Shown piece by piece: positions 3,126 to 30,454 of a DNA stretch of 44,584 nt (position 1 is its first letter; every line of letters begins with the position of its first letter). The stretch comes from a virus. The stretch lies in the IMG/VR virus record IMGVR_UViG_3300042905_001985, positions 1-44,584 of that record. One strand, 5' to 3'. The translations under genes were made by a program, and so were the position numbers. The notes beneath the pieces were generated by a model. The model was not told where the DNA came from. It saw only the letters and a list, made by a program, of their open reading frames with translations, and made no database searches.

Positions 3126-3156
3126 AGTAGTTATTATTATATAATCTTTTGGTTTA

Positions 3157-4758
3157 TTAATTCTGTTGCCTACCGTCGCCTTGTGTTGCACGACCAGTTT
3201 CATCTGAGTCTGGTGCATTTGCAGCGCGATCTTGGTCTCTTCTTCTGTTGCCAGTTGCCTGTGCGGTTTGTTCTGCTGCTTGTTGTGCAGTTAAAACTAC
3301 TGGCGCATCGCCATCTGGTATGCTTGGAAGTTTGAGGCGCGCTCTAACTTCATTTGGAAGAACAGTCTTCATTCTAAGATATCTTTCATCTATCTTAGAC
3401 TGCGTTTCTTCGTCAGTTAGCGTAAGTTCATTGAATTCAAATCTAAAGATATCTGTTTTCTCGCCAATAATCTTGTTGATTTTCTTTTCAAGGGAGTCTT
3501 GTGCTGGACGACAGACTTGCTCCTTAAAGGTTCTGTCTGCCTCTCTCGCTGCTGCTAGGCCAATTCCTTCTGCCGCTCCAACCTTAGATGCTGGTGTTCT
3601 ATGCACCATAAGTATTTCTGATACGTTGCCTTTTCTGTAGTTAGCAAAAGAAGATTCTTGAACGCCATTCTCAATGGCCTCCATCTTCATCTCAACCTTG
3701 CCGTCTGGTGTATCTGAAGGAATCGGAATGACAACCGTTCTATGGTTTTGGCCTCTTAGATTACCTTGGAAGAACTCAAACAATCTTTCCTCTGCTTCGC
3801 GCGACATCTTGGCACCTTTAAGCCAGAATACATATCTTGGAACAGCCTTATTCTCAAAGTACTCAAGGTTGAACTTGGACGAGAATTCGTTACCAGCCAT
3901 AGCATTTTTAGCAGCAACAATTGCTGGTACACCATAGTAAGTATTGGTTGGGGTGTAGTTCTTGATATGAATAATTTCATTTGGACGAGGATCTGTGGTA
4001 ATTGGATTCTTGGTAGTTGTATCTTGGAAGTTTCTAAAATACACCGCCTTACCAGAAACTATTTGAACATATCCGTCTCTTGTTCTACGAACTCTCATTG
4101 TTGGAGATGGAATATGACCTATGTAACCAATTTCTCCATTAGACTTTCTACCAATTTCTATGTATCCATTTCCAGTTGCTTCGGCATCGGTATACACCTT
4201 CATCAGTGTGGCAGTAAGAGTGTCGTCATCATTTCTGCTTTCTAGCCAGTCTATTACTCTGGTGCGCGCACGCGCAATATTTCTTCTTAGCCTTGCCAAA
4301 TCATCTGGATTCTCTGCGTCTTCCATTCGCTGCATAGTTTCTGGAGACGGTAGCAAGTCATATCCAAGACCAACAATATTGGCGACCTTGGCATTAATAG
4401 CCGCATAATTAGGAGCGGAAAGTTCATAAATCTTAGCAAGGGCATATTGATTGTATTGTGGCTCAACTACGTCAAATATTCCATATCCAAACTTGTCTGG
4501 AATAATCTGCTTTGAGGTTGCCTCGTCGCCAGAATATTGGTTGTCATCTGCCTCAACAATTTGGCCACTAACAGTGACGAGAGCCTTCGCAATCTTTCTC
4601 TTAGCATTCCGCTTGAAATTTTGAGACAGTCCAGAAAGTTCTAGCAGATCATCAGATGACTTCTTAAAGTCATCCTGCTCTAGAACAACTGGCTCAGACT
4701 TAGTTAAGCCTGGTAGCCTTACTCCATCAACTAAGGCTTCTTCTCGCTCTTGCTGCAT
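3157..4758 (-). CDS. Phage portal protein
   Basis: A 533-residue protein with the pattern of PBSX/HK97-type portal proteins: an N-terminal SAPNYAAINAKVANIVGLGY helix, an NGYIEIGR strand, IIHIKNYTPTNTYYGVPAI and an NRTVV-like IPIP loop (NHRTVVIPIP), and a Gln/Ala-rich C-terminus. It forms the dodecameric channel at the capsid vertex through which DNA is packaged. I choose the ATG at 4756-4758 because AGGAG lies 9 nt upstream; the longer reading begins with TTG and would overlap the previous gene by 56 nt instead of 32. It is followed by the protease-scaffold and capsid genes, as in most tailed phages. No terminase is in the window. Confidence 0.9.
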   Translation of the reverse strand: MQQEREEALVDGVRLPGLTKSEPVVLEQDDFKKSSDDLLELSGLSQNFKRNAKRKIAKALVTVSGQIVEADDNQYSGDEATSKQIIPDKFGYGIFDVVEPQYNQYALAKIYELSAPNYAAINAKVANIVGLGYDLLPSPETMQRMEDAENPDDLARLRRNIARARTRVIDWLESRNDDDTLTATLMKVYTDAEATGNGYIEIGRKSNGEIGYIGHIPSPTMRVRRTRDGYVQIVSGKAVYFRNFQDTTTKNPITTDPRPNEIIHIKNYTPTNTYYGVPAIVAAKNAMAGNEFSSKFNLEYFENKAVPRYVFWLKGAKMSREAEERLFEFFQGNLRGQNHRTVVIPIPSDTPDGKVEMKMEAIENGVQESSFANYRKGNVSEILMVHRTPASKVGAAEGIGLAAAREADRTFKEQVCRPAQDSLEKKINKIIGEKTDIFRFEFNELTLTDEETQSKIDERYLRMKTVLPNEVRARLKLPSIPDGDAPVVLTAQQAAEQTAQATGNRRRDQDRAANAPDSDETGRATQGDGRQQN

Positions 4759-5059
4759 CTCTCCACGCTCCTGTATCTCCAAATGTAAGCAGTCCGCTAT
4801 TCATTCTCTCTAGATCTTCCTGATATTCTTCTTCAGTGACTCTACCGACACCTGCAATAAAGACTGCCTCGCCATCTGGTTGGCCATAATGAGATGCAGC
4901 CTTTTTTATTTCTACCATTTTGGTGATATCTCCACGCTCGGCTGGTATGTTAAGAACATTTCTGTCCTCATCAGCAAAGATAGAGCCGTCTGGAAGTCTC
5001 CAAACGTATATTCCGTATCTTGATTTGTCCTCTACTACAGATAATTTTGGCTTATTCAT
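4727..5059 (-). CDS. Conserved small phage protein upstream of portal
   Basis: A 110-residue soluble, charged protein with no membrane segment or recognised domain. It has a beta-rich N-terminal half (RYGIYVWRLPDGSIFADEDR) and a helical C-terminal half that ends in a basic tail. The stop lies 32 nt inside the portal gene, which suggests translational coupling. Its place between tail fibre and portal genes suggests a head or connector accessory, but that is inference from position only. Confidence 0.7.
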   Translation of the reverse strand: MNKPKLSVVEDKSRYGIYVWRLPDGSIFADEDRNVLNIPAERGDITKMVEIKKAASHYGQPDGEAVFIAGVGRVTEEEYQEDLERMNSGLLTFGDTGAWRDAARARRSLS

Positions 5060-5092
5060 ACCACAATGTTAGCACATTATGATTATTTTTGG

Positions 5093-5929
5093 CTAAGATT
5101 GGTCCAAGAAGTAGACAATTTTTTCTAATGTTGGCACTTTTGTAAACGATCCACTAGTCTTTAGCCACACGGTATCAATATACTCAAGACCATCTATTAC
5201 ATTTATATAATCTCCATTAGATGTTGTTACAAGGGTGACTCCACCGTTAAGATTTAGTTGATATACAGCATTATCTGAGATACTTAGAACTCTATCTGGA
5301 ACAACGCTTTCGACGCCATCAAAATACTTTAGGTCTCCTGTTAATTTAACAGCAGGATTGCCAATGTATGAAGAAAGAGAGTCTTCAGTGACAAGACGAA
5401 CGTCTGATGCGAATCGTAGTTGATCTGAATATGGCTGATATATCGTTCCTGTAACGGACGATGTGTGTCTAGATTCATCTTTATCAAATAGCCTGATTGA
5501 ACCAGATGCCGATTCTCCAGTAGATATTGCAGCAGACGCACCAGTGAAAGTTATATGTATATTTCTTATGTCTTGTGCGCCTAGACTTGTATCTAGCATA
5601 TAAAGATTTTGTATATTAAAGTCACACGACCCAGTGTTTCCAAATCTTACTAAAAAGTTGTTAGACGAATCAGTTTCCAGTTTCGGATCAAACGTAAATG
5701 CGATGTGCTGCCATTGATTCATTATCACAGACGAAGTGCCTTGAGCAACGCCGTTTAGAAATATAGATGATGAATTAGATACGGCAATTCTATTTGAAGA
5801 ATTTAGGCTGGCTGAAAAAAGACTTGATGATAGGGCAGAAGAAGAAAATACTTCAAGAATCTTTGTTCTTGTAGAATTCTGATCATTCACCTTAATAAAA
5901 AAGCCTATAGTTCCAAGTTGTTTAATCAT
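5093..5929 (-). CDS. Tail protein with lamin-G/concanavalin-like domain
   Basis: A 278-residue Ser/Thr/Asn-rich beta protein. Residues ~10-130 follow the LamG/ConA-like pattern: GFFIKVND opening strand, SSSIFLNGVAQG, MNQWQHIAFTFDP, then a closing LDTSLGAQDIRNI segment. The rest is beta-rich with no family I recognise (VVPDRVLSISDNAVYQLNLNGG). AGGTG sits 8 nt before the ATG. It is encoded 11 nt after the much larger tail protein at 5941-9228 and looks like a smaller relative, so a role in host-surface glycan recognition at the tail tip is likely but inferred. Confidence 0.7.
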   Translation of the reverse strand: MIKQLGTIGFFIKVNDQNSTRTKILEVFSSSALSSSLFSASLNSSNRIAVSNSSSIFLNGVAQGTSSVIMNQWQHIAFTFDPKLETDSSNNFLVRFGNTGSCDFNIQNLYMLDTSLGAQDIRNIHITFTGASAAISTGESASGSIRLFDKDESRHTSSVTGTIYQPYSDQLRFASDVRLVTEDSLSSYIGNPAVKLTGDLKYFDGVESVVPDRVLSISDNAVYQLNLNGGVTLVTTSNGDYINVIDGLEYIDTVWLKTSGSFTKVPTLEKIVYFLDQS

Positions 5930-5940
5930 TTATTTCGCAC

Positions 5941-8900
5941 CTACCAAGTAATATTATAAGCATCTTTCATCCAGTCGGTTATTCTATCTATTTCAGTCTT
6001 AGTGTGAGCAGTATTAAATACCAAAACCCCAGAAACGTCTCCGTTTAAGAATCTGCTGGTTCCAGATGGATCTTGTCTATATCCTATCCTCATTGCTGAA
6101 GAATAACTTCCTGTTCCAGCATTTCCTGAAACCACAGATGAGTTGACAAAGAATGAACTTGAGTTGTTATTAAAGACTCCAACTAAAATGTTAAAGTTAT
6201 TATTAATTGACGCTCCTACAAGAACCTGGCCCGCTGCCATTCTAAATGTATTATTTTCAGTGTAGATCGCTGGCGCTGACGCGGAGTGTCCGACAATAGT
6301 ATTATTGCTATCGAATGCTCTACCGACAACATATACTGTCATTGGCTGGTTAATTGTTACACTAGAAGTAAAATAGTGATTTAATCCATTAAACTTATAT
6401 GTTGGTCTATCATCAAATAGTTCAAGCGGCTCATACCAAGCAATAGGTGAGCCAGACACCGTTGATCCAGAATATATTGCCATGTTATCCCAATATACTG
6501 GATCGCCAGATACTGAAGACCCATTATAGAATCTAAAACTTAACCAATTGGTTCCAGACGGAACCGTCATAGTTACCGAAGCAAAGTATGTGCCTACCTC
6601 ATTTGGAACTGAGGCAGAAAATGATGACAAGAGTACGCCAAGCGGAGAAGTGCTTGCGGCATACAACCCTATCCTTCTTGCACTAGCAGATGCAACAGAT
6701 TGGGTTTTCAATAAAGAAATATTTCCGATAACAGTGTATTGCTGACCTGGGAATATAAATCTTTTTGCACTGGATGAGGTTAAGTCATAAAAATATTCAA
6801 TAAAGGAGTCGGCTGAGGTGCCAGAAGGGACAACCTTTATGGATCGCACTCCGCCCGATGCAGTCTCGGTAGATGACTGTGCAGAAGCATTACTCGTCAA
6901 AAAGTCTGTTACGCTACCACTCTCAGATCCATTTGCTTGGTTTACCGTCAGAATATTTAAAGATTGGTATCTGTACTCTGGATTATTGGCAGTAGCCAAT
7001 ACAGATGCTGTTATTGCACTGCCAGACAAACTTGTCCACAATCTATTTGACGCTGATCCATCTGGATGTGGATCTTGTCCAAGTCCATTTGGAAATCTAG
7101 AGTCATACCATAGCAATAAATTAGAAGATAGCGTTGGGTCTAAAGATTTGGATGCTGGACTGAACTCAACATCAGCGGTATTTCTATATATGCGTACACC
7201 AGATCCATCAGTAAGGTATGTGGTGGGGGTTAAATCTAGTTCTGGCACATAAATTTGTGCGGAGGCAACAGATGCACTATTTATCCTTATTCTGTCTCCA
7301 GAATTATCTAGTATCTCAACATACGATCCACTGAACGGATAGGTTTCTATTTTAAAGTATTTTATTATTGGTGCATAGTTTGTTACATCGTCTGCCAAAA
7401 TATCTATATCAAATTGTATATATTTGTCCGATAGATCTATAAGATTAAGCCACTCTAAACTATTTACTTTCTGTAACTGAACACGCGATCTTATCGCCAC
7501 GCTAGATGAGTAATTATATAAAGATGCATATATCTTTACCTGAGATGCTGAAATAACATCTGGATATCCAAACTCAAATCTGTTTGCAGATATTATGGCA
7601 CTGCCAGAGTCTAGGTATTCTCCTAACGCCGCCCCATGAAGAATAAAGTTAGCATTTCCAAAAGATCTATTTCTAAACGACCCCTTTGTTGAGTCATATA
7701 TTAAAGAATATACTGGCTGCTCGTATTGATCAACTGATACAAAAGTAGATCCAGAAAAATTATCTTTGGTAATTATGAAAGATAGGAATGTTCCATTAAA
7801 CTGAGCAACATTATTAACGCTAGATATTACAGAAGAGTCGTCATATGTCAGCCCGCTACCTATTCTTATTACAGTATTGTCTGTTGGCGGGAAGTAACTA
7901 GATATTGGATCAGCGTCAAAAACGCTACCAGAGAATGATACAAGTGATGCAGTTTGAAGAGTCGATCCAGAAAGACCGAAATAAACAATACTTTGATTTT
8001 CAAAATTCATTCCAGTAACTATTGTTGGACTAGAAGTTATGTTGGGTATCCAGAATCTGGCGGAGGATGTTGATACATTGCTCTTAGCAACTAGATAGTA
8101 TGATCCAGAAAAGTTGGCAAAGTTAAAATCAATGACGCTACTAAACGGTGCCTGCCCATAAGACATTATTGTCTGTGGAAGACCTTCCTGTGGCAGAGTG
8201 CCATTAAGCCTCACCTCAACAAAAAATGGGTTCCCTCCCTGACCAAGAAGAGACTGTAGATTTTCTACTTCCAAATATGTTCCATATGTATCGCCAGCAG
8301 ATGATGTAAAGGCGACAACGTTATTTGATGTGTTAATTTTATTATCAAATGAAACTATACTTGGAACATCATATGGTATCGGCCTGATTCCATCCGAAGA
8401 ATGAATTAAGTTGTCATACTGAGTTAGTGACCATTCCTGAGGCTGATCCCATAGAGCATAAAAAGATTTCCTGCTTGCCTGTGTTGAGAAATTATAAAAG
8501 TCTCCACCAAGACTAATGAATATATTTTCATTAACGCTTTTACCAAGCCCGTAAACATAATGAGTTTTTGCTGTGTTGGATCTAATGTTAAATGCATATA
8601 ACGCAATTGAGTCTACCACGACTGCATAGTCTGAACTTCCATAGAAATCCATATAGTCGTTTGTGGAATGGCTTGTGTCGATTGGCAATGATATATTTGC
8701 AAAATTGTTTGTTATTGTTGATACTCCATTTACTATCAACTCTATTCCAGATCTATTCTGATTCATAACAATATGAGTTGGCTCATTAAGTTCTGCCATG
8801 CCATATGCAGCCTCTATATATGTAGTAGAAGTTCCGTATCTAAACATTAGATAGTTGTCTTTTAGATAAAGTCCGATATTCGGATTATTTCTTTTTGTTG

Positions 8901-9228
8901 CTATCCTAACTTCTCTAGAAGGAACTTTGTCACATCTAAGCCAAAACTCTATACATGATTCTCTTTTATCGTACAGTTCAGAAAATCTGCTTAGTAGTGG
9001 AATACTGATATTGGGGGTGGCCGAACTAGTTAGTCTTAATGCAGTACCTCCGCCAAAAACAATTGGTATGTTCAGAAGCACTGTGTTGGCTGCACTAATT
9101 GAGGCAGCATACTGTGATGCAGAATTGCTATAAAAGTTTATAGGCAATGAAATCGAAGACGACTCATTTATATTCTCAAAGGGCCAGACTATATCTGGTC
9201 TATCTTTAAGAATTAATCTGCTATACAC
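5941..9228 (-). CDS. Large tail protein with several LamG/ConA-like domains (receptor-binding candidate)
   Basis: A 1095-residue Ser/Asn/Tyr-rich protein with almost no Cys. At least three LamG-like stretches can be seen: ~1-210 (opening PDIVWPFENINESS, IEFWLRCDKVPS, VVDSIALYAFNI), ~270-480, and ~960-1095 ending SGVLVFNTAHTKTEIDRITDW, a typical last strand and helix of concanavalin-like folds. A carbohydrate-module-like region lies near 750-930 (the segment PSGTNWLSFRFYNGSS). The architecture suits a tail fibre or tip protein that binds host envelope glycans. The start is GTG with GGAGG unusually close (2 nt). It is followed by the second LamG protein and preceded by the ribonucleotide reductase gene. 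Confidence 0.8.
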   Translation of the reverse strand: MYSRLILKDRPDIVWPFENINESSSISLPINFYSNSASQYAASISAANTVLLNIPIVFGGGTALRLTSSATPNISIPLLSRFSELYDKRESCIEFWLRCDKVPSREVRIATKRNNPNIGLYLKDNYLMFRYGTSTTYIEAAYGMAELNEPTHIVMNQNRSGIELIVNGVSTITNNFANISLPIDTSHSTNDYMDFYGSSDYAVVVDSIALYAFNIRSNTAKTHYVYGLGKSVNENIFISLGGDFYNFSTQASRKSFYALWDQPQEWSLTQYDNLIHSSDGIRPIPYDVPSIVSFDNKINTSNNVVAFTSSAGDTYGTYLEVENLQSLLGQGGNPFFVEVRLNGTLPQEGLPQTIMSYGQAPFSSVIDFNFANFSGSYYLVAKSNVSTSSARFWIPNITSSPTIVTGMNFENQSIVYFGLSGSTLQTASLVSFSGSVFDADPISSYFPPTDNTVIRIGSGLTYDDSSVISSVNNVAQFNGTFLSFIITKDNFSGSTFVSVDQYEQPVYSLIYDSTKGSFRNRSFGNANFILHGAALGEYLDSGSAIISANRFEFGYPDVISASQVKIYASLYNYSSSVAIRSRVQLQKVNSLEWLNLIDLSDKYIQFDIDILADDVTNYAPIIKYFKIETYPFSGSYVEILDNSGDRIRINSASVASAQIYVPELDLTPTTYLTDGSGVRIYRNTADVEFSPASKSLDPTLSSNLLLWYDSRFPNGLGQDPHPDGSASNRLWTSLSGSAITASVLATANNPEYRYQSLNILTVNQANGSESGSVTDFLTSNASAQSSTETASGGVRSIKVVPSGTSADSFIEYFYDLTSSSAKRFIFPGQQYTVIGNISLLKTQSVASASARRIGLYAASTSPLGVLLSSFSASVPNEVGTYFASVTMTVPSGTNWLSFRFYNGSSVSGDPVYWDNMAIYSGSTVSGSPIAWYEPLELFDDRPTYKFNGLNHYFTSSVTINQPMTVYVVGRAFDSNNTIVGHSASAPAIYTENNTFRMAAGQVLVGASINNNFNILVGVFNNNSSSFFVNSSVVSGNAGTGSYSSAMRIGYRQDPSGTSRFLNGDVSGVLVFNTAHTKTEIDRITDWMKDAYNITW

Positions 9229-9240
9229 ACAGCCTCCGCA

Positions 9241-11166
9241 TTATACTTGAGTTATGTCACAAGCCCCTGATACACATGCGAGTTCCTGGCTTCCGGTTGT
9301 GCCATCAGATGTTTCATAATACGTTAACCAGTTCCAGTCAAGTGTTTTTGGAGTCTTGTCTAATATCTCATTATACTCCATTTCAGAGATTTCCTGATAT
9401 GGGGCTTGCTGGTATGTGTGATCAGAATAGGGGAGGAATGAGATTCCTGAAAGTTCATCTATATGTGTGTACACCCAAGCACCAACGTCCATCCATTCAT
9501 CTTCTTTTACAGACACGGTAATAGATGGCTTGTGCTCCGTCCAATGTCTTTGATATGCCAGCCATAGTTCTAGATGCTGAATGGCTCCGACATCTTTTCT
9601 GGTTAAGGCATTGCTAGGCGCTTTAATTGGAAATGTAAATACGGTAGTGTCATTTGGCTTCATTACGTCTGGCTCTCCAATAACACCAGCCTCTTTTAGA
9701 AATGTTGTAACTGGATCTTTATTGTCTGCACGGATAGTTCTAGCATAAAATTCACTATGCCATGTGTGCATTCCGCTAGAGCAGTTGACTAGTTGAGATA
9801 CCGTGCCAGATGGCTTAACACATGTAATTGCTGTTGACTGATTAATTCCTAATGCTGATGCATATTCCTTATTTGTTTCAACGGCCTGTAGTCGCATTGC
9901 TGTTAGCCATTCCTCAAGTTTATCTAATCCTTGTGAGCCATTAAGAACTGGATGCCCAAGTTGTCCAGTGAGGGATACGCCAAGTAGTCTTTCTTCTTCT
10001 GAGTTCTTCTGCCATATCTTACGAAGATACTTAAATCTAGTAAATGTTGACTGTAGAGTTCCAAGAATTGTGGCTATGCGAACCTTGTTGAGTAGGTCTT
10101 CTAGTGTGTCGCCTTCTCTAACCACAACCTCTGTCAGATTACAGAACTGGTATGGACGAAGAATAATTTCACTACATGGGTTAGTTCCAAACTCATGTCC
10201 TGGTTCACGACGGCCATTCTTTGATGCCACCTTCTGTGCGGCTGCTCTAGAGAATATTCCGCGCTCACCACTCTTAGAATCGTACAAAGACTTCCACTCT
10301 GCCATGAAAACTTCCATACTTGGTCTTTTTTCATATACGGCTGAGTTATTGGCGAGTGCTCTTTGAGAATTATATTCCCACCAAGAACCTGCCTTCGCCG
10401 CAGCCATGTTACGGTCTTCTAGGTCAGACAGGGAGATCATTGCTGATCTACGCACTCCACCAACAACTACAACCTCTGCGATCTTGCACATAATGTCGTG
10501 TGCCTCTAATGGCGTTAACTTACGTCCAGATGCAGATCTTATAGTTTCAACCGTAAACCTGAATAGTCTATCAAGGGGGTCAGGGCCAGATGCCCTGCCA
10601 CCGAAAGTCTTAAGTCTTGCGCCTGCTGGTCTAACAGCAGACAGATCCCAACTAGGAACCTGTCCTTGATAAAGAAGCGCAATCAACTCTCTAAGGGCCT
10701 TTGCCCAACCAGCCTTTGAATCATCGACAACTATGGTTGTTGGTGAAATTTCAAAGTGCTCGTTAATAACGGGAAGTTGATTAACATATTTTGATTCTAC
10801 TGAATACCCAACTCCTGTTCCACACATAAGAATGTACATCGCTTCATCGAATGACCTAAGTGAATCGACTGGCAGGTAGGAACAGTTGTAGATACAGGTA
10901 TTATCTCTTTCTAGCGCAGGGCCAGCAGTCATAAGACCGCGCATTGATGGCATAACTTCTGTTCTTAGAATTGCGTTATGAATATCTTGAAAAACTTCTG
11001 GAGAGATTGTGAAATTGTTATATTTTTCTAGGCTGTCATAAATATAGTTTATATATCGTCCAACAGTTTCGTGCCAGTCCTCCCTGCGGTTTTCTTCTTC
11101 AATCCATCTTGCATATCTTGTCTTGTGAATAACCTGCTGGTACGCTGTAGGCAAGGAAACTGTCAT
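9241..11166 (-). CDS. nrdJ: Adenosylcobalamin-dependent (class II) ribonucleotide reductase
   Basis: A 641-residue monomeric class II RNR of the Lactobacillus leichmannii type, which reduces ribonucleotides using a B12-derived radical. Key residues, numbered from the chosen start, are redox Cys 91 in NTCIYNCSY, thiyl-radical Cys 331 and Glu 333 in NPCSEI, partner Cys 342 (spacing 11, as in the family), and a C-terminal CVSGAC shuttle pair at 631/636. The L. leichmannii enzyme is 739 residues, so this one is shorter. I start at the ATG at 11164-11166 (GGAGAG 6 nt upstream); the longer reading starts with TTG and would run across a terminator hairpin and the opposing gene. It sits between tail genes, with its own upstream hairpin. 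It requires host cobalamin. Confidence 0.93.
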   Translation of the reverse strand: MTVSLPTAYQQVIHKTRYARWIEEENRREDWHETVGRYINYIYDSLEKYNNFTISPEVFQDIHNAILRTEVMPSMRGLMTAGPALERDNTCIYNCSYLPVDSLRSFDEAMYILMCGTGVGYSVESKYVNQLPVINEHFEISPTTIVVDDSKAGWAKALRELIALLYQGQVPSWDLSAVRPAGARLKTFGGRASGPDPLDRLFRFTVETIRSASGRKLTPLEAHDIMCKIAEVVVVGGVRRSAMISLSDLEDRNMAAAKAGSWWEYNSQRALANNSAVYEKRPSMEVFMAEWKSLYDSKSGERGIFSRAAAQKVASKNGRREPGHEFGTNPCSEIILRPYQFCNLTEVVVREGDTLEDLLNKVRIATILGTLQSTFTRFKYLRKIWQKNSEEERLLGVSLTGQLGHPVLNGSQGLDKLEEWLTAMRLQAVETNKEYASALGINQSTAITCVKPSGTVSQLVNCSSGMHTWHSEFYARTIRADNKDPVTTFLKEAGVIGEPDVMKPNDTTVFTFPIKAPSNALTRKDVGAIQHLELWLAYQRHWTEHKPSITVSVKEDEWMDVGAWVYTHIDELSGISFLPYSDHTYQQAPYQEISEMEYNEILDKTPKTLDWNWLTYYETSDGTTGSQELACVSGACDITQV

Positions 11167-14167: not shown

Positions 14168-14857
14168 ATGAAGATAGATGTACTAGATCATGGATATGTT
14201 AGATTAGTTGGTAACTTCGGCTCTGACCTTGAAGTAGTGAATGCCGCTAGAGTATCTTATGACAAATGTGTTGATTCCTTTTCTGAGAGAGATGAAAAAC
14301 TCCTTGAATTCCTAATTAGAGAAAAGCATGATTCCACACTTAGACACTGTACAATCTCGTTTGAAATTTACGCTCCGCTGATGATTGCTCGCCAGTGGTA
14401 CAAGCACGCGGTAGGAAGTACACATCTTGACGATCAAAGTGGATGGAATGAATCGTCGCGCAGGTACGTCACAGAACAACCTGTATTCTACATCCCTCAA
14501 GCCTGGAGAACGGCTCCAGAAAATTCGAAACAAGGAAGTGGACCAGACATCCATCCAGAATTATCTCAACGCTTCTACGAGCGTTTAAAGTACCATGTAG
14601 ACGAATCCGTCAATCTGTACAACCAATTGCTCGCAATGGGCGTCGCAACAGAACAAGCCCGTTTGTTTTTACCCGCATATGGCATGTATGTCCGCTGGCG
14701 CTGGACAACGAGCCTGAATGCGGCTTTGCATTTCTGTTATCTGCGTCAGGCAGAAGATGCTCAATCAGAAATACAAGAGTACGGAGATGCAGTTATGACT
14801 ATCTTGAAAGACTTGTATCCATTTTCTACAAAATTCTGGCGGCAGCATCGTGGATGA
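14168..14857 (+). CDS. thyX: FAD-dependent thymidylate synthase
   Basis: A 229-residue flavin-dependent thymidylate synthase that makes dTMP from dUMP with methylene-tetrahydrofolate and NADPH. The signature region runs from R75 (RQWYKHA) to NESSRRY (94-100), followed by the PxxWR and NSKQGSG segments seen in many phage ThyX proteins. The usual RHR triplet reads KHA here, and about nine extra residues separate it from NESS; comparable variants occur in phage ThyX as far as I recall. GGAG lies 9 nt upstream. The next gene overlaps its stop. Confidence 0.93.
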   Translation: MKIDVLDHGYVRLVGNFGSDLEVVNAARVSYDKCVDSFSERDEKLLEFLIREKHDSTLRHCTISFEIYAPLMIARQWYKHAVGSTHLDDQSGWNESSRRYVTEQPVFYIPQAWRTAPENSKQGSGPDIHPELSQRFYERLKYHVDESVNLYNQLLAMGVATEQARLFLPAYGMYVRWRWTTSLNAALHFCYLRQAEDAQSEIQEYGDAVMTILKDLYPFSTKFWRQHRG

Positions 14858-15886: not shown

Positions 15887-16033
15887 ATGAGCCTAATGCG
15901 TAAGTGTCCGACGTGTGGCGACACCTATTGGCCCGCCACTATGCATGAGTGCGACCTATGCCGCGCAGCGCGCGCTAGCCGTTACCCGTTGTCTGAATTG
16001 GCTATGCGACAGGCACGCAAGGCGCGCGCATGA
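15887..16033 (+). CDS. Small zinc-ribbon protein with basic tail
   Basis: A 48-residue ORF, translated by eye, with AAGGTG 6 nt before the ATG. It has CPTCG and CDLC knuckles (residues 7-10 and 22-25), then an Arg/Ala-rich basic C-terminus (RQARKARA), a plan that suits a nucleic-acid-binding zinc ribbon. Its stop overlaps the ATG of the membrane peptide that follows. Confidence 0.6.
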   Translation: MSLMRKCPTCGDTYWPATMHECDLCRAARASRYPLSELAMRQARKARA

Positions 16034-16101
16034 TCATCCTATGTCTAATAGTCGGGGGGCTAATCCTATTTGGCCTGACCTTCGGGATATCCACAAGATA
16101 A
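16030..16101 (+). CDS. Tiny single-TM peptide
   Basis: A 23-residue ORF starting in an ATGA overlap with the previous gene. It begins MIILCLIVGGLILFG and is almost entirely one hydrophobic helix with a short polar end. It belongs to a set of similar tiny membrane peptides at unit ends (17570, 19042, 19695, 26763, 26849). Its 3' end runs into the first DnaA-box-like sequence. Confidence 0.45.
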   Translation: MIILCLIVGGLILFGLTFGISTR

Positions 16102-16333
16102 TCCACAGGCTAGAAAGTTATCCACAGATCTGTCTTTCTATCCACAGGGTTAGGGTAGTTATCCACAGATGAGTTGGATATTAGTCAGAGTTATCCACAG
16201 GTCCGCCGCCCAAACTGTGGATAACCATGTGACTAATGTGGATAACCTGTGCATAACCTGTGTATAACTTGTGGATAACCTGTGGATAAGTTGTGCATAA
16301 CGTTATCCACACCTGTGGATAACCTGTGGAAAA
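16087..16333. other. Candidate replication origin: array of 16 DnaA-box-like 9-mers
   Basis: Nine exact copies of TTATCCACA or its complement start at 16118, 16159, 16191, 16216, 16237, 16270, 16281, 16303 and 16314. Seven single-mismatch copies start at 16087, 16099, 16138, 16248, 16259, 16292 and 16325. The left six boxes are on the plus strand; those to the right are on the minus strand except 16303. Apart from the end of a tiny ORF, nothing is encoded here. This is the strict bacterial DnaA-box consensus and its density equals that of a chromosomal oriC. It could be a DnaA-dependent phage origin or a site that titrates host DnaA. Confidence 0.75.
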
Positions 16334-16354
16334 CCCGGGCGCTTTTTCCAGATT

Positions 16355-16392
16355 TGTCAAGTTTACGACCGTTACGAAAAAATCCCTGAAAT
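16355..16392 (+). repeat. TTACGA...TCCCTGAAA element, copy 1
   Basis: TGTCAAG-type start, two TTACGA hexamers (16363, 16372), an A-run, then a variant TCCCTGAAAT. It is the first of ten related elements and lies directly after the DnaA-box array. Confidence 0.5.
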
Positions 16393-16394
16393 CA

Positions 16395-16516
16395 CAGGCT
16401 TTTTGGCGTGCGAGGCTGAAAAGCCTTGCAGCATAAGGGTTTTCGACATGCCAAAAGTTGTTGCATACCAAGGGTTTTCGGCTGCGGCTGAAAAGCCTTG
16501 CGGCATAAGGACTTTT
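16395..16516 (+). terminator. Hairpin cluster downstream of the origin
   Basis: Two stems with GAAA tetraloops (AGGCT/AGCCT at 16413-16426; GGCT/AGCC at 16486-16497) are interleaved with three AAGG-type hairpin repeats ending in GGGTTTTC or GGACTTTTT. It resembles the insulator cassettes further right in a different order and probably stops transcription leaving the origin. Confidence 0.5.
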
Positions 16517-16618
16517 TGCATGGTAACGATTCTGTAACATCGATGTGATGTAGACCACATTAGAGACACCCTAGATATGTCCACATATCGGTCATATGGG
16601 TGTGTCAGATTAGGTAGA

Positions 16619-16640
16619 TGTCAGACCCCCATGATAGCCT
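16619..16640 (+). promoter_or_regulatory. Promoter P2 for the 16668 operon
   Basis: TGTCAGACCC, six nt, TAGCCT. Unlike the leaderless set, about 27 nt with an AAAGGAG ribosome binding site separate it from the ATG. An inverted repeat (ACACCC/GGGTGT around 16565-16605) lies upstream. Confidence 0.55.
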
Positions 16641-16667
16641 TAGGGCGTAGAAAGAAAGGAGCGCACC

Positions 16668-16820
16668 ATGCGCAAGGTAATGATTCGCCTCGTCACCTCC
16701 GGCCTAGAGTGGACCGAAGAACTGAACGAGGATCAGGTGGCCCTGTACGTTTCGGGGGTTACTCGCGCTGGCACGTCAGTAGTGACGGGCCTTGAGTTTC
16801 TAGAGGAGGTGTCCGCATGA
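16668..16820 (+). CDS. Small protein, first of a four-gene unit
   Basis: A 50-residue ORF, translated by eye, with AAAGGAG 7 nt upstream. It is an acidic alpha/beta protein (MIRLVTSGLEWTEELNEDQV, TGLEFLEEVSA). Its stop overlaps the next start (ATGA). The family is unknown. Confidence 0.65.
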   Translation: MRKVMIRLVTSGLEWTEELNEDQVALYVSGVTRAGTSVVTGLEFLEEVSA

Positions 16821-18212: not shown

Positions 18213-18340
18213 TGTGGAATGTTGTCTACAATGAGCGCGTGATCGCGGCATATGAGAGCCTGCAAGGTGCGCGTATGCACTTCGGCATGGTAATGAGTGC
18301 CGACAACTGGAACAACCTATACATTCGGAGGGAATGGTAA
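18209..18340 (+). CDS. Small protein preceding whiB-like gene
   Basis: A 43-residue ORF, translated by eye, ATGATG start overlapping the previous stop. The sequence contains NERVIAAYESLQGARMHF and ends NLYIRREW; the layout beta-hairpin plus helix suggests a small soluble fold. Its 3' end carries GGAGGG, the ribosome binding site of the WhiB-like gene. Confidence 0.6.
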   Translation: MMWNVVYNERVIAAYESLQGARMHFGMVMSADNWNNLYIRREW

Positions 18341-18342
18341 GC

Positions 18343-18588
18343 ATGTGGCAGGATAAGGCGGCGTGTCTTGACGCCGATTCATCGTTGTTTCTCACGGGCG
18401 TCACGTCCCGTGTCCTACAGGCTAAGGCAATCTGTGAGCGTTGCCCTGTAATTGACGATTGCCTTGCGTTCGCGCTGGACAATGAGGACTTTGAGCCGCA
18501 CGTCTATGGCGGCATGACTGGCGATGAGCGTAGGGTTATCGCTAAAGAAATCGAATCGGAAATGATGGGAGAGTATGTCAGTGCCTGA
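18343..18588 (+). CDS. WhiB-family Fe-S transcriptional regulator
   Basis: An 81-residue WhiB-like (Wbl) protein. The four Fe-S cysteines are at 8, 31, 34 and 40 (spacing Cx22Cx2Cx5C) in AACLD, AICERCPVIDDC, and the Gly-rich turn VYGGMTGDERR follows, as in the family. Such proteins carry a 4Fe-4S cluster, bind region 4 of the primary sigma factor and alter promoter choice; phage versions are known from mycobacteriophage TM4. Wbl proteins are essentially confined to actinobacteria and their phages, so this is good evidence for the host group. An ATG three codons upstream (18334) is an alternative start. Confidence 0.93.
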   Translation: MWQDKAACLDADSSLFLTGVTSRVLQAKAICERCPVIDDCLAFALDNEDFEPHVYGGMTGDERRVIAKEIESEMMGEYVSA

Positions 18589-20447: not shown

Positions 20448-20520
20448 GCGTCTGTAGAGCAGCGGAGTGCTCGCCACCCTGTCACGGTGGAGGTCGTGGG
20501 TTCGAATCCCATCAGATGCG
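20448..20520 (+). tRNA. tRNA-Asp (GTC)
   Basis: 73 nt with acceptor GCGTCTG/CAGATGC, anticodon loop CTGTCAC giving GTC, T-arm GGTTCGAATCC and discriminator G; no encoded CCA. A perfect hairpin (TGAGCATG...CATGCTCA) ends 4 nt before it. Confidence 0.92.
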
Positions 20521-20552
20521 CGTAAACAAACTACAAACTCTAAGGAGTCTAG

Positions 20553-20687
20553 ATGGTAAAGGTAGAGATGCCGCGTGGTGATTGGGATGCAGTCCTAACG
20601 TGCCTCCGCGAGTTGATGGATCAGGGGTGGATCGTAAAGTCCCTATACAATGACATTATCGACCAAGTAGACGAACAGGAGTATTAG
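20553..20687 (+). CDS. Small acidic protein
   Basis: A 44-residue ORF, translated by eye, with AAGGAG 6 nt upstream, starting 32 nt after tRNA-Asp. It is helical (DWDAVLTCLRELMDQGW, YNDIIDQVDEQEY). Family unknown. First of four small genes up to tRNA-Asn. Confidence 0.65.
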   Translation: MVKVEMPRGDWDAVLTCLRELMDQGWIVKSLYNDIIDQVDEQEY

Positions 20688-20688
20688 A

Positions 20689-20856
20689 ATGGCTTTGCTT
20701 ATCGTACACCCAGGAACAGGCACGATCATCGATGTCAACGATGGGACGCTCATTGTTGATATTCCAGACACGAGAGAGGGAATCGGAAGTCTGGATGATG
20801 AGGACATTCTCCTGTATGCTGAACGTCACGGGAAACTGCTAAAGGGAGAGGTGTAA
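20689..20856 (+). CDS. Small acidic protein
   Basis: A 55-residue ORF, translated by eye, starting 1 nt after the previous stop. It has a beta N-terminal half (LLIVHPGTGTIIDVNDGTLI) and a helical C-terminal half (DDEDILLYAERHGKLLKGEV). Similar short proteins occur in actinophage early regions; function unknown. Confidence 0.65.
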   Translation: MALLIVHPGTGTIIDVNDGTLIVDIPDTREGIGSLDDEDILLYAERHGKLLKGEV

Positions 20857-20858
20857 CA

Positions 20859-20990
20859 ATGGCACACTTGCCGCCGCTTCATTGGGACTTCTGTCTCAAC
20901 TGCGAGGGTGCGCTAACCGATCAGCAGATCGATGACGACGATTCGTATTGCCCAACATGCATTGACCTACTCGTAGGAGTGTCCGAATGA
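20859..20990 (+). CDS. Small zinc-ribbon protein
   Basis: A 43-residue ORF, translated by eye, with CLNC (residues 12-15) and CPTC (31-34) knuckles 15 residues apart and an acidic middle. It overlaps the next ORF (ATGA). A zinc-ribbon fold is likely; the partner is unknown. Confidence 0.6.
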   Translation: MAHLPPLHWDFCLNCEGALTDQQIDDDDSYCPTCIDLLVGVSE

Positions 20991-21070
20991 AACTTGACTT
21001 TGCCGATCACCTGATGGCATCCTTGTTTGACCCTAATCACTGGTGCAAGTATTGCGAGGAAGGCGAGTAG
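20987..21070 (+). CDS. Tiny protein with CxxC
   Basis: A 27-residue ORF in an ATGA overlap with the previous gene, ending HWCKYCEEGE. Short, but the coupling and single CxxC knuckle favour real coding. A run of nine C and tRNA-Asn follow. Confidence 0.4.
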   Translation: MKLDFADHLMASLFDPNHWCKYCEEGE

Positions 21071-21082
21071 CCCCCCCCCTAA

Positions 21083-21154
21083 TGGCGTGTGGCGCAATGG
21101 CAGCGCAATCGGCTGTTAACCGATGGGTTGCAGGTTCGAATCCTGCCACGCCAG
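21083..21154 (+). tRNA. tRNA-Asn (GTT)
   Basis: 72 nt with acceptor TGGCGTG/CACGCCA, D-arm GCGC...GCGC, anticodon loop CTGTTAA giving GTT, T-arm CAGGTTCGAATCCTG, discriminator G. A GC hairpin follows after 5 nt. Confidence 0.92.
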
Positions 21155-21159
21155 CGCCC

Positions 21160-21176
21160 GGGCACGTTCCGTGCCC
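21160..21176 (+). terminator. GC hairpin after tRNA-Asn (cassette D)
   Basis: GGGCACG-TTC-CGTGCCC, the same terminal hairpin as cassettes A-C, without the AAGG-type hairpins. Confidence 0.65.
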
Positions 21177-21177
21177 T

Positions 21178-21231
21178 TTGTCAAGTTACGAACCGTGTGA
21201 TTACGATCACAGAAAAAGAGTCACTGGAAAT
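21178..21231 (+). repeat. TTACGA...TCACTGGAAA element, copy 5
   Basis: TGTCAAGTTACGA, a second TTACGATCACAGAAAA, then GTCACTGGAAAT just before the -35 of P10. Confidence 0.55.
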
Positions 21232-21233
21232 GC

Positions 21234-21262
21234 TTGATACTGTCGTACCCTACTGCTAGTCT
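21234..21262 (+). promoter_or_regulatory. Promoter P10 with leader
   Basis: TTGATA (-35), 17-nt spacer with TGTCGTACCC, TAGTCT (-10). The ATG at 21295 is 32 nt downstream with a purine-rich AAGAGAAAGAGAG before it. Confidence 0.7.
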
Positions 21263-21294
21263 GTATATACCTACTAAGAGAAAGAGAGTCCAGC

Positions 21295-21681
21295 ATGGGA
21301 GACCGCGCTAACTTCGGAATCCGTCAGACTGACGGCAACACCATCTTCATCTACGGCCATTGGGCAGGTGAGGGTATGCTTGCACGATTCGCAAATGCAC
21401 TTGATAAGGCTGACGTTCGTCTGCCTTATGACGATGCCTATGGCACTCGTATCATCGTCTCGCAGTTGATTGGCGATGATTGGAACCAGCCGCTTGGTTG
21501 GGGCATCACGCTCAACAAGTTGTGTGACAACGAGCACAAGGTGCCTGTCTACGATCTAGAGACTGATACTGTCAGTCTGTATGACTTTGACTGGCATTAC
21601 AACAAGACCACCGACCTTATCTTCACGATGCCTCGCATCGACTTTGTTCGCAAGTATTCCAAGACCAAGATTGGAGTCTGA
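21295..21681 (+). CDS. Conserved actinophage protein (GDRANFG family-like)
   Basis: A 128-residue soluble alpha/beta protein. The opening GDRANFGIRQTDGNTIFIYGHWAG is a pattern I associate with a family of short proteins in actinobacterial phages and hosts whose function is unknown. Further segments are YGTRIIVSQLIGDDW and VPVYDLETDTVSLYDF. It is first in the two-gene unit ending at tRNA-Glu. Confidence 0.75.
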   Translation: MGDRANFGIRQTDGNTIFIYGHWAGEGMLARFANALDKADVRLPYDDAYGTRIIVSQLIGDDWNQPLGWGITLNKLCDNEHKVPVYDLETDTVSLYDFDWHYNKTTDLIFTMPRIDFVRKYSKTKIGV

Positions 21682-21683
21682 GC

Positions 21684-22070
21684 ATGAGCAACTACACAAT
21701 GACCGCCGTTACTGGCGTAGCCGTGTCTGAGCATGAGAAGGCGCTAGCCGATGTTGAGAGGCTAGGCAGGCGTGTATCCGAACTAGAGGGTATGCGCGAG
21801 CGGCTGTCTGAATATCTTTCAGAGTTAGAGATTGGCGACGAGATTACTCTAGGGTGTGCCCAACAGATCGCAGAGATCATGGCCATCACGCCTCGTCGGT
21901 ACATCAATCTGCGAGTGTCTGCTGAGTTTGATGTAACGGTGTCCGTTCCATTTGACTATGACGTAGACACAGACAATCTTGAGAATGATCTATCCGTGTC
22001 GATCAGTGAGCATGGTGATGTTAGTATTCTTGATGTCATGAGTGAAGTGGTCAACATCGAAGAGCAGTAA
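21684..22070 (+). CDS. Hypothetical protein with N-terminal coiled coil
   Basis: A 128-residue acidic protein. Residues ~15-50 are a heptad-rich helix (EKALADVERLGRRVSELEGM), the rest a beta-rich domain (RYINLRVSAEFDVTVSVPFDYDVD). No enzyme motif. It starts 2 nt after the previous stop and is co-transcribed from P10. Confidence 0.7.
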   Translation: MSNYTMTAVTGVAVSEHEKALADVERLGRRVSELEGMRERLSEYLSELEIGDEITLGCAQQIAEIMAITPRRYINLRVSAEFDVTVSVPFDYDVDTDNLENDLSVSISEHGDVSILDVMSEVVNIEEQ

Positions 22071-22084
22071 GAGGAAATGGCGCT

Positions 22085-22108
22085 AGCATACCGCTGCCAA
22101 CGTATGCT
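22085..22108 (+). other. Hairpin abutting tRNA-Glu
   Basis: AGCATAC-10nt-GTATGCT, perfect 7-bp arms, ending 3 nt before the tRNA 5' end. Similar hairpins precede tRNA-Asp and the tRNA-Trp candidate. Confidence 0.5.
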
Positions 22109-22111
22109 GAT

Positions 22112-22184
22112 GTCCCCATCGTCTAGTGGCCAAGGACGCCGCCCTTTCAAGGCGGTAGCACGGGTTCGAATCCCGTTGGGGATA
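22112..22184 (+). tRNA. tRNA-Glu (TTC)
   Basis: 73 nt with acceptor GTCCCCA/TGGGGAT (one G-T pair), anticodon loop CTTTCAA giving TTC, T-arm CGGGTTCGAATCCCG, discriminator A. A GGGAGGGC...GCCCTCCC hairpin starts 2 nt after it. Confidence 0.92.
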
Positions 22185-22186
22185 CT

Positions 22187-22256
22187 GGGAGGGCGGTTGT
22201 GACTGGACTCCGACTGCCCTCCCTCCAACTTATAGGCCCGGGCGCGTTTCGCGCCC
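22187..22256 (+). terminator. Hairpins after tRNA-Glu (cassette E)
   Basis: GGGAGGGC (22187-22194) pairs with GCCCTCCC (22216-22223); then GGGCGCG-TTT-CGCGCCC (22240-22256), a covarying version of the terminal hairpin seen elsewhere as GGGCACG. Confidence 0.65.
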
Positions 22257-22257
22257 A

Positions 22258-22311
22258 TTGTCAAGCCTTTTACGATCCCTTTACGACGATCACTGAAAAA
22301 TCACAGAAATA
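22258..22311 (+). repeat. TTACGA...TCACTGAAA element, copy 6
   Basis: TTGTCAAG, two TTACGA hexamers, then ATCACTGAAAA and ATCACAGAAAT in tandem, upstream of P11. Confidence 0.55.
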
Positions 22312-22337
22312 TCATCAATGTTTATCTTGGAAAAGTC

Positions 22338-22366
22338 TTGTGACTGTCAGACCCGTAGTGTATCGT
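22338..22366 (+). promoter_or_regulatory. Promoter P11 with leader
   Basis: TTGTGA (-35), 17-nt spacer with TGTCAGACCC, TATCGT (-10). The leader to the ATG at 22406 carries GGAGA. Confidence 0.7.
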
Positions 22367-22405
22367 TGTCCCATAAGTTGATTCACTACCGATTGGAGAT
22401 ACACA

Positions 22406-23407
22406 ATGTCACATGATCTAGAGAAGGGTAGCAATGGTGAGGTTTCTTTCGCCTCCCTCCGCGAACCCGCATGGCACGGCCTTGGCACCGTGTTCACTGA
22501 GGAAAAGTCCACCCGTGAGATGCTGTCTGCCGCGTACCTTGACAACTGGAACGTGCGTCTAGAGTCCGTCAACGCGCTTGCTCCCGAATACAACTTCGTC
22601 AGCGATTCGTTCATGGTCGTGCGCGATAACCCGTTCGACAACTCGCAGGACGTTCTCTCCGTCGTGGGTGAGCGTTACAACGTCGTACAGAATGAGGAAC
22701 TGTTCTCGTTTGGTGACAATATCCTTGACGGCGGTGGCCGTTGGGAGACTGCTGGCTCTATCAAGCAGGGTCGCGTGGTGTTCGGCTCACTTGCGCTGGA
22801 GCGTGAGACCGTCCTTGATCCTAGCGGTGTGAGTGACAAGGTGCTGTCGTATCTGCTGCTGCACACCTCACACGATGGTTCGGTGGCTGTTCAGGCTTCC
22901 ATCACGCCCATCCGTGTCGTGTGCCAGAATACGCTCAACTTCGCTCTCAGGTCTGTCAAGCAGTCTTACAAGATTCGCCACACCTCTACGGTGTCTGGCA
23001 AGGTTGCTGCTGCGCGTGAGGCGCTTGGTCTTGCTCATGCCTACATGGACGAGTTTGATACAATGGCTCAGGCACTCATTGAGGCTGAGATCACCAAGGC
23101 TCAGTTCGATAAGATCGTTGAGACCGCCTACCCTCGTCCTGACAAGGATGTCAAGGGTGCCATGACCAAGTGGCAGAACAAGGTTGACCAGATTCAGGAA
23201 ATCTGGACTTCCGACACGACCAACATGATCGCCACGACTGCGTGGGGTGCTCTCAATGCCATGACGGAGCGCCTTGACTGGTTCCGTACTGGTCGCGGTG
23301 AGCGTGGTCAGGAGAACGTGCTCGCTGCCGCGAGCGGCTTCGATCCTGTGACCAACGCAGAGAAGGGTCGCCTGCTCTCCATCGTGAAGCAGACGGTCGG
23401 AGTCTGA
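22406..23407 (+). CDS. DUF932 phage/plasmid-like protein
   Basis: A 333-residue protein of the DUF932 family (phage/plasmid-like protein TIGR03299 type): REPAWHGLGTVF near the N-terminus, LNWNV-like strand (DNWNVRLESV), VVGERYNVVQNEELFSF (~90), GRVVFGSLALERE, and TPIRVVCQNTLNFAL followed by RHTSTVSGKVAAAREAL. Family members are widespread on phages and plasmids and lie near replication or recombination genes; the molecular function is not established. It is a monocistronic unit from P11, with the tRNA-Trp/Tyr pair just downstream and probably on the same transcript. Confidence 0.88.
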   Translation: MSHDLEKGSNGEVSFASLREPAWHGLGTVFTEEKSTREMLSAAYLDNWNVRLESVNALAPEYNFVSDSFMVVRDNPFDNSQDVLSVVGERYNVVQNEELFSFGDNILDGGGRWETAGSIKQGRVVFGSLALERETVLDPSGVSDKVLSYLLLHTSHDGSVAVQASITPIRVVCQNTLNFALRSVKQSYKIRHTSTVSGKVAAAREALGLAHAYMDEFDTMAQALIEAEITKAQFDKIVETAYPRPDKDVKGAMTKWQNKVDQIQEIWTSDTTNMIATTAWGALNAMTERLDWFRTGRGERGQENVLAAASGFDPVTNAEKGRLLSIVKQTVGV

Positions 23408-23417
23408 TCCACCGTCC

Positions 23418-23440
23418 TGAGCATGACGCTAAACTGCTCA
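23418..23440 (+). other. Hairpin abutting tRNA-Trp candidate
   Basis: TGAGCA-11nt-TGCTCA, ending 3 nt before the tRNA. A near copy (TGAGTA...TGCTCA, with shared flanks GTCC and TAAAC) lies at about 20237-20260. Confidence 0.5.
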
Positions 23441-23443
23441 CAT

Positions 23444-23512
23444 GCCACCAGCGCAGGGACGCAGACGAGCCTCCAAAACTTGTCGTGCTAGGTTCGATTC
23501 CTAGTGGTGGTG
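23444..23512 (+). tRNA. Probable tRNA-Trp (CCA) with short D-arm
   Basis: 69 nt. Acceptor GCCACCA/TGGTGGT, anticodon loop CTCCAAA giving CCA, T-arm CTAGGTTCGATTCCTAG, discriminator G. The D region is about four nt short and the anticodon stem closes with a C-A mismatch, so it may be atypical or decayed. It lies 4 nt before tRNA-Tyr. Confidence 0.65.
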
Positions 23513-23516
23513 CTCC

Positions 23517-23596
23517 GCCTAGTAGCCCCCAAGGTGGGGGAGCGGTCTGTAAAACCGTCGCCGTTGGCATGGTTGGTTCGATTCCAACACTAGGCA
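23517..23596 (+). tRNA. tRNA-Tyr (GTA)
   Basis: 80 nt. Acceptor GCCTAGT/ACTAGGC, anticodon loop CTGTAAA giving GTA, a long variable arm as expected for bacterial tRNA-Tyr, T-arm GTTGGTTCGATTCCAAC, discriminator A. Confidence 0.88.
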
Positions 23597-23612
23597 CAAA
23601 AGACTTGACAAA

Positions 23613-26600: not shown

Positions 26601-26632
26601 TTACGAACCCAATGAAAAAAGTCACTGAAATT
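26601..26632 (+). repeat. TTACGAACCC...TCACTGAAA element, copy 8
   Basis: TTACGAACCC, A-run, GTCACTGAAAT. No TGTC-type promoter follows within 60 nt. Confidence 0.5.
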
Positions 26633-26719
26633 TCTGGACATCGGATATTTTCGAATGATATGATGAAGGGCCACAGAATTGTGGTTTGGCCGGGATTTTA
26701 CAATTGTACTTTGTAATAC

Positions 26720-26752
26720 ATTACGAACCCTTCAAAAAAAATCACTGAAAGT
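26720..26752 (+). repeat. TTACGAACCC...TCACTGAAA element, copy 9
   Basis: TTACGAACCC, A-run, ATCACTGAAAG, ending about 10 nt before the ATG at 26763. Confidence 0.5.
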
Positions 26753-26762
26753 TTGGAGAAAC

Positions 26763-26849
26763 ATGGAACAAATAATATTTTGGCTGGCAATTGTAGGATT
26801 GCTGGCATCAATAGCAGTTTGGACAATCATCAAAGGCCCGGAGGACTAA
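26763..26849 (+). CDS. Tiny single-TM peptide
   Basis: A 28-residue ORF, translated by eye: MEQIIFWLAIVGLLASIAVW and a polar end KGPED. GGAG lies 7-8 nt upstream. TAATG-coupled to the next peptide. Confidence 0.5.
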   Translation: MEQIIFWLAIVGLLASIAVWTIIKGPED

Positions 26850-26923
26850 TGGAATTCCTCCTAATTATCATATGTATATTACTTATACTAGGTATGATGC
26901 AACCTCCACCACCCCGAAAATAA
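26849..26923 (+). CDS. Tiny single-TM peptide with proline tail
   Basis: A 24-residue ORF: MEFLLIIICILLILGMM then PPPPRK. A GGAGGAC before it serves as ribosome binding site. Pairing with the preceding peptide suggests a two-component membrane element; function unknown. Confidence 0.5.
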   Translation: MEFLLIIICILLILGMMQPPPPRK

Positions 26924-26999
26924 TAGTCTATAAATCTACCTGATTATCTATATTTTTATTCATTTTTCCGGTAACTTTTATATCTTTTCTGGCAAAAAC

Positions 27000-27032
27000 C
27001 TTTACGAACCCTCGAAAAAAAATCACTGGAAT
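27000..27032 (+). repeat. TTACGAACCC...TCACTGGAA element, copy 10
   Basis: TTTACGAACCC, A-run, ATCACTGGAAT, in noncoding sequence with no promoter or gene after it. Confidence 0.5.
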
Positions 27033-27106
27033 TGTGGTCATTTGTCATTCATACCACTATATGTAGTGGTTGGATATATAAATGACTATGTAATTTGTAT
27101 TACGAA

Positions 27107-29248: not shown

Positions 29249-29436
29249 AGTCCAGACCGATACTTTCTACGAAGTGGAGGCTTGATGCCTGCTCGTACAC
29301 ATGCAAGATACGCTATACCGTATCGCTTCTCTGCGCCCTCTCCTGCCTTACCACCGACCGCCCTACGCAGTTCCTGCGCGGCAGACTCAAGGCTTCTCAG
29401 CAGTCTTTCTTTTTCCTCGTTGCTTAGGTTCTCCAT
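29245..29436 (-). CDS. Small basic helical protein
   Basis: A 63-residue protein: NEEKERLLRSLESAAQELRR helix, then GIAYLACVRAGIKPPLRRKY. Basic C-terminus. It is coupled to the GuaB-like gene by a GTGA overlap. Family unknown. Confidence 0.6.
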   Translation of the reverse strand: MENLSNEEKERLLRSLESAAQELRRAVGGKAGEGAEKRYGIAYLACVRAGIKPPLRRKYRSGL

Positions 29437-29599
29437 AAATCACTTTCCCATCGTCTATATATTGTTTGTACTTTAACTTACATGGCTCGCACCATTGAAT
29501 TGCTGTAAACTTTTTACTACTCACACCGTACTTTGTCATACAATCGAACTCCTGATGTTTAGTGCTGATGCAGGTGCTATTGTAGTTGTGCTGATCCAT
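29387..29599 (-). CDS. Small Cys-containing basic protein
   Basis: A 70-residue protein with scattered Cys (C10, C20) and WCEPCKLKYKQYIDDG at ~36-50, then a basic tail (KQRGKRKTAEK). The 50-nt overlap with the next gene is large but the CxxC motif and pattern support coding. Possibly a small zinc protein. Confidence 0.5.
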   Translation of the reverse strand: MDQHNYNSTCISTKHQEFDCMTKYGVSSKKFTAIQWCEPCKLKYKQYIDDGKVIYGEPKQRGKRKTAEKP

Positions 29600-30452: not shown

Positions 30453-30454
30453 TA

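Follow-up and report, generated by a model that had tools for sequence, protein, structure and literature searches.

The window analysed here, a 44.6-kb fragment (44,584 nucleotides) of a tailed phage from IMG/VR, contains 16 TTATCCACA-like 9-mers within positions 16087–16333, and the interpretation of these sites as DnaA boxes used by a phage is well supported. The element that they form would almost certainly bind host DnaA. We tentatively regard it as a host-DnaA-binding cis element of an early, terminal-repeat-like block, most likely an origin of replication, an interpretation to which we give slightly less than even chances. How replication starts in large lytic phages endowed with their own helicase and polymerase is often unknown, and a cluster that changes place while being mostly kept, as described below, provides a direct and testable case for such phages depending on host DnaA, or capturing it.

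Our recount agrees with the original prediction on both the number and the layout of the sites: nine are exact TTATCCACA copies (i.e., all those of the whole window) and seven carry one mismatch, which amounts to 16 sites where no 247-bp stretch held more than three when the window was simulated 300 times with a first-order Markov model, a DnaA-box cluster far beyond chance. On the left, all the sites are on the plus strand, then come seven on the minus strand, one on the plus strand and two on the minus strand, the two halves thus mostly facing inward, as in the layout of a bacterial oriC. Spacings in the left half (12, 19, 20, 21 and 32 bp) are close to multiples of the helical turn, while nine starts of the right half, between 16237 and 16325, are spaced by exactly 11 bp (Table 1). 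As the relaxed DnaA consensus TTWTNCACA is matched by 13 of the 16 sites (nine TTATCCACA, two TTATGCACA, one TTATACACA and one TTTTCCACA), most of the variants differ where DnaA tolerates change; the three that do not match, all in the left half (ATATCCACA, TAATCCACA and CTATCCACA), would be weaker candidates. The stretch, first described as largely noncoding, is indeed so from about 16102, but a possible ORF of 23 codons (16030–16101) runs into the first site; longer ORFs spanning the array look spurious. Folded as single-stranded DNA, the segment 16080–16560 is predicted to do far better than its shuffles (z = −10.2), a property that inverted boxes necessarily confer. The DNA beside the array is mildly unstable (least stable 60-bp windows at −1.25 vs. 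a mean of −1.32 kcal/mol per step over all 44.6 kb), and no strongly unstable DNA was found there. Finally, when the array was compared with phage records at the nucleotide level, only box-like matches came up and no homologous element, while a literature search found no paper describing such a DnaA-box array in actinophages.

Table 1. Location of the array, of the elements around it and of the genes used to position it (coordinates of the window).
Feature	Position	Strand	Remarks
ThyX thymidylate synthase	14168–14857	+	First plus-strand gene beyond the block
Early/terminal-repeat-like block	15400–27300		Gene-order homology to the 11,063-bp direct terminal repeat of Bmoc; approximate bounds
Segment missing from G017 (L352)	15891–16778		0.9 kb, includes the entire array; flanks 97% and 95% identical
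Array, left half	16087–16199	+	6 sites (16087, 16099, 16118, 16138, 16159, 16191), 3 exact and 3 with one mismatch
Array, right half	16216–16333	−	10 sites, 9 minus and 1 plus (16303), 6 exact
TTACGA-N-TCACTGAAAT-type element	16363–16392	+	Adjoins the array
Three direct repeats (AAAAGCCTTG..GCATAAGGGTTTT type)	16409–16520		Adjoin the array; more copies out to 19.8 kb
Promoter-like TGTCAGACCC..ATGATA element	16619–16641	+	About 290 bp past the array; putative function
WhiB-like regulator	18334–18588	+	Points to an actinobacterial host
DUF932 protein	22406–23407	+	58.9% to Bmoc gp2, within the Bmoc terminal repeat; anchor for aligning relatives
Three TTACGAACCC-N-AAAAAATCACTG elements	26601–27034	+	Outer noncoding stretch, where relatives also have DnaA boxes
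Decayed outer site	26690–26715	+	TTTTCCACAAGTTATCCACA / CTATCCACAAGTTATCCACA at the aligned position in G017 and G001

The genes of the window include those for a portal protein, a prohead protease, RNR, an amidase, ThyX, WhiB and IMP dehydrogenase, along with sugar-modifying genes. In phage records, the best matches of the portal, ThyX and DUF932 proteins are Streptomyces phages of the Stanwilliamsviridae, a kinship also visible in the gene order that they share with the window and in homologues of portal, RNR, ThyX and DUF932. The portal is up to 58% identical to those of the Streptomyces phages Bmoc, Mildred21 and kin, which resemble the window in having thyX, RNR, endolysin and portal in this order and an early block with DUF932. 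The window represents part of a large, lytic actinophage with affinities to the Stanwilliamsviridae. The host is probably a low-GC actinobacterium, since the window encodes both a WhiB-like regulator and an Lsr2-like protein (weak match), and since its GC content is 43%; WhiB has been proposed as an actinophage marker (PMC10202952). In Bmoc (132,885 bp), bases 1–11063 are identically repeated at 121,823–132,885, and this repeat contains DUF932 (gp2) and ends ahead of ThyX (gp23), after which come RNR, endolysin and portal. The same gene order is found in reverse in the window, which places a repeat-like block at about 15.4–27.3 kb, with a GC content of about 0.47–0.57 over most of its length vs. 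about 0.31–0.48 outside. By this synteny, the array would sit some 1 kb inside the inner end of the block, which we infer to be a terminal repeat in the window phage. The terminal repeat of Bmoc, unlike the window, is devoid of DnaA boxes, and the position syntenic with the array (9992–10412, locus L315) is occupied by a ATATGGGTA-type repeat array instead. The Streptomyces-type box TTGTCCACA was considered as well; Bmoc has four scattered sites of this kind, none of them in its terminal repeat.

To what extent the boxes are shared was examined in 80 loci of relatives anchored on DUF932. Exact boxes occur there in three zones (8–5 kb before, about 1.1 kb before and 3–5 kb after the DUF932 gene end), with almost none between the zones and a reversed-motif control near zero, and most of them are pairs 11–12 bp apart in these intergenic zones. 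In the 14 large relatives, 96 of the 124 exact boxes fall within the homologous 15.5-kb block (−10 to +5.5 kb of DUF932), i.e., 0.50/kb vs. 0.022/kb outside, a 23-fold ratio that is descriptive, because the block bounds were picked after seeing the box distribution and the relatives are not independent. The relatives carry only about 2–10 exact boxes in the block, and in some (G024 and G026) exact boxes are missing altogether. Since relatives keep smaller sets of boxes elsewhere in the block, the capture of host DnaA in this early block is probably a real function, most likely that of starting phage DNA replication. In distant relatives (L168 and other loci), the region 3–5 kb after DUF932 brings together a pair of DnaA boxes, ATTACGA and repeats of the AAGGTTTG and CTCCAC types, which gives the outer noncoding zone of these loci an origin-like layout. 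In addition, a search of 8-mers near the boxes showed that motifs of the AGGTTTG and CTCCAC types are enriched in distant relatives.

The original prediction called for a search for the array at the same position in related phages; its position is not conserved. G017, the closest relative covering the array site, joins the homologues of positions 15890 and 16779 and is without the segment in between, which rules out a conserved array position among relatives. The relatives are metagenomic contigs; G017 closes on itself through an exact 69-bp end overlap and, therefore, is probably complete. Its three exact block boxes are located at 5680–6268, in the outer noncoding stretch, and G017, L130, L131 and others all have their box clusters at the outer end of the block, while that of the window is at the inner end. 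In the aligned outer stretch, G017 has TTTTCCACAAGTTATCCACA vs. TTTTACAATTGTACTTTGT in the window. As the nearest relatives have their boxes at the opposite end, and those of the window have decayed there, the DnaA-box cluster appears to have moved and grown, its place changing while some cluster persists in most relatives. Moreover, the outer site is common to G017, L130 and L131, so the window phage would be the lineage whose cluster changed place. Its site being empty in G017 and flanked by similar gene ends, the array was gained or lost by recombination. Such a change of place within the block, with the cluster kept, is as expected of an element working anywhere in the block, and it is because of this independence from position that an origin or a DnaA sink fits better than an injection stop or a single promoter.

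If the array is an origin, host DnaA would fill both rows of boxes, which face inward and are phased with the helix, the array-bound DnaA would act as the initiator and open the DNA, and it would then recruit the DnaB-type helicase of the phage. Replication genes are missing from the window, itself a fragment, and the pattern of an own helicase with no DnaA is the one seen in relatives: a DnaB-type helicase (DnaB_C) is present in 14 of the 16 relatives, and neither Bac_DnaA or Bac_DnaA_C domains nor an IstB/DnaC-type loader occur in any of the 14–16 relatives searched. Bmoc itself encodes a helicase, a primase, SSB and a DnaE polymerase, with no annotated initiator. Hence, the box cluster, its enrichment in the block and a helicase without DnaA or loader in relatives all count for an origin. 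Counting against it are the lack of a skew turn at 16.2 kb and of strong unwinding DNA, the absence of the array in G017, the two relatives without exact box and the Bmoc repeat without any, as well as the fragmentary nature of the window, an initiator gene being possible elsewhere in the genome. Regarding skew, the predicted inflection at 16.2 kb is absent: the cumulative GC skew of the window changes direction at about 14.0 kb and 26.9 kb, both of them points where the coding strand switches. In G017, too, the minimum (90.7 kb, at ThyX) and the maximum (5.9 kb, in the outer box zone) fall on strand switches and thus do not identify an origin; with skew following the coding strand in both sequences, a skew-based origin call was ruled out. 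The original prediction is thus partly supported: that a phage puts DnaA boxes to use is backed by their conservation in the block of relatives at 23 times the outside density, but neither skew nor array position agrees with it, two reasons for which the evidence for an origin exactly at 16.2 kb is indirect.

DnaA boxes with a defined position and orientation are parts of the origins of the phage-plasmid P1 and of other plasmids (PMC4980987). Like these origins and oriC, the array is a TTATCCACA cluster, proposed to recruit host DnaA. Unlike the array, P1-type origins also employ a Rep protein and its iterons, and neither a Rep-type protein nor a strong unwinding element was found beside the array. 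An array copied from a host oriC was also considered. Four consecutive same-orientation boxes spaced by 11 bp occur in only 51 stretches among the roughly 85,000 genomes searched, none of these stretches being titled as an actinobacterium, so capture from a host oriC receives no support.

Among the alternatives, the one that survives best, though we hold it unlikely, is a sink: early in infection, the boxes would take host DnaA out of circulation and so halt new rounds of host replication. Many apparently high-affinity boxes, independent of their position within the block and present in two copies per virion if the block is a terminal repeat, would suit such a sink. Nonetheless, the number of exact boxes in the block of relatives is small for titration before replication, and a sink has no need for ordered pairs 11–12 bp apart or for inward-facing halves. 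Clustered DnaA boxes outside oriC are also found in titration loci of the datA type, from which the array differs in being viral and in having many more boxes, in tandem.

Alternatively, host DnaA might act as a repressor or timer of early phage promoters, a role that we consider improbable. In about 31 of the 80 relatives, exact boxes (usually a pair) are found upstream of DUF932 near promoter-like sequence, and a promoter-like element lies downstream of the array in the window (Table 1), but the boxes are not tied to one gene and the outer cluster of relatives sits between convergent genes. The promoter-like TGTCAGACCC..ATGATA element is repeated upstream of several small early ORFs. More generally, cassettes recur between the early genes from 15.4 to 24 kb; these include AAAAGCCTTG..CATAAGGGTTTTCGG repeats, a GCCCGGGCACGTTTCGTGCCC hairpin, the TTACGA..TCACTGAAAT element and a promoter-like TGTCAGACCC/TGTCGTACCC element. 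TTACGA is found 16 times on the plus strand vs. three times on the minus strand between 15.4 and 27.2 kb.

The density of such sites had been thought untypical of large lytic phages, which is only partly right, as T5 has three exact boxes, all of them in its terminal repeat, while its 101,312 bp of unique sequence lack any. A 2026 paper attributes repeats, inverted repeats, palindromes and DnaA boxes to the injection stop signal of this phage (PMC13250531). Its annotated iss spans 9140–10149 of the 10,219-bp repeat and combines several repeat families with four DnaA-like boxes (9437, 9449, 9498 and 9510), i.e., two pairs 12 bp apart. Like the iss, the array belongs to noncoding DNA in which repeats, inverted repeats and DnaA boxes occur together, and synteny would put it close to the inner end of a long repeat. 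Strong folding of single-stranded DNA is also predicted for the array. Hence, the array might be a DnaA-bound element that pauses or times DNA entry as the iss does, but we see little chance of this. First, of the four boxes of the iss, one is exact and three are close to the consensus, a set unlike the 16 sites with an 11-bp period seen here. Second, unlike in T5, the nearest relatives of the window phage have their boxes at the other, outer end of the block, which makes no sense for a stop signal if that end enters first, and the terminal repeat is itself a deduction here. Third, the role of the DnaA boxes is unproven in T5 itself. In turn, the parallel opens the unexplained DnaA boxes of classic T5 to comparison.

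An unrelated repeat that resembles DnaA boxes, be it a site for a phage protein or a functionless chance expansion, is very improbable: an array site that is empty in a close relative, between similar gene ends, would fit recombinational gain or loss, but the variants fall mostly at loose positions of the DnaA consensus, diverse relatives have the same 9-mer concentrated in their homologous block and the outer boxes were lost in the very phage that has the array.

Box arrays are also found at the genome ends of Berlinvirus A7, Vibrio phage BD1, Arthrobacter phages Seahorse and Tiff81 and some Klebsiella phages, and P483 has one at its terminal junction; all these represent a few related groups. 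Those of A7, P483, Seahorse, Tiff81 and BD1, at or next to the genome ends, were seen in loci L321 (1–1648 of MK685668), L322, L320, L326 and L323, and the arrays of A7 and P483 lie at the junction between gene 19 and the early genes. It is conceivable, if doubtful, that long terminal repeats (in T5 and these actinophages) and the ends of some smaller phages (A7, P483, Seahorse, Tiff81 and BD1) each acquired DnaA-box clusters, in which case DNA that is terminal or enters first would generally capture host DnaA as an early step in the control of phage replication or DNA entry. In Microvirus mar31 (L327), a 120-bp DnaA-box-like stretch (1953–2076) that is 81% identical to the array lies between the capsid and pilot protein genes, and other ssDNA microviruses have similar DnaA-box-like matches to the array.

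Within the early block, four tRNA genes are found at 20448–23597, for Asp (GTC), Asn (GTT), Tyr (GTA) and Glu (TTC). Those for Asp, Asn and Tyr represent three of the four queuosine-type anticodons, and the four genes are possibly replacement tRNAs against anticodon nucleases. Beyond the block, a minus-strand cluster (28211–44549) encodes IMP dehydrogenase, sugar epimerases, a DegT aminotransferase and glycosyltransferases, and the GC content goes down to about 30–35% at 35–42 kb, within this cluster of sugar genes.
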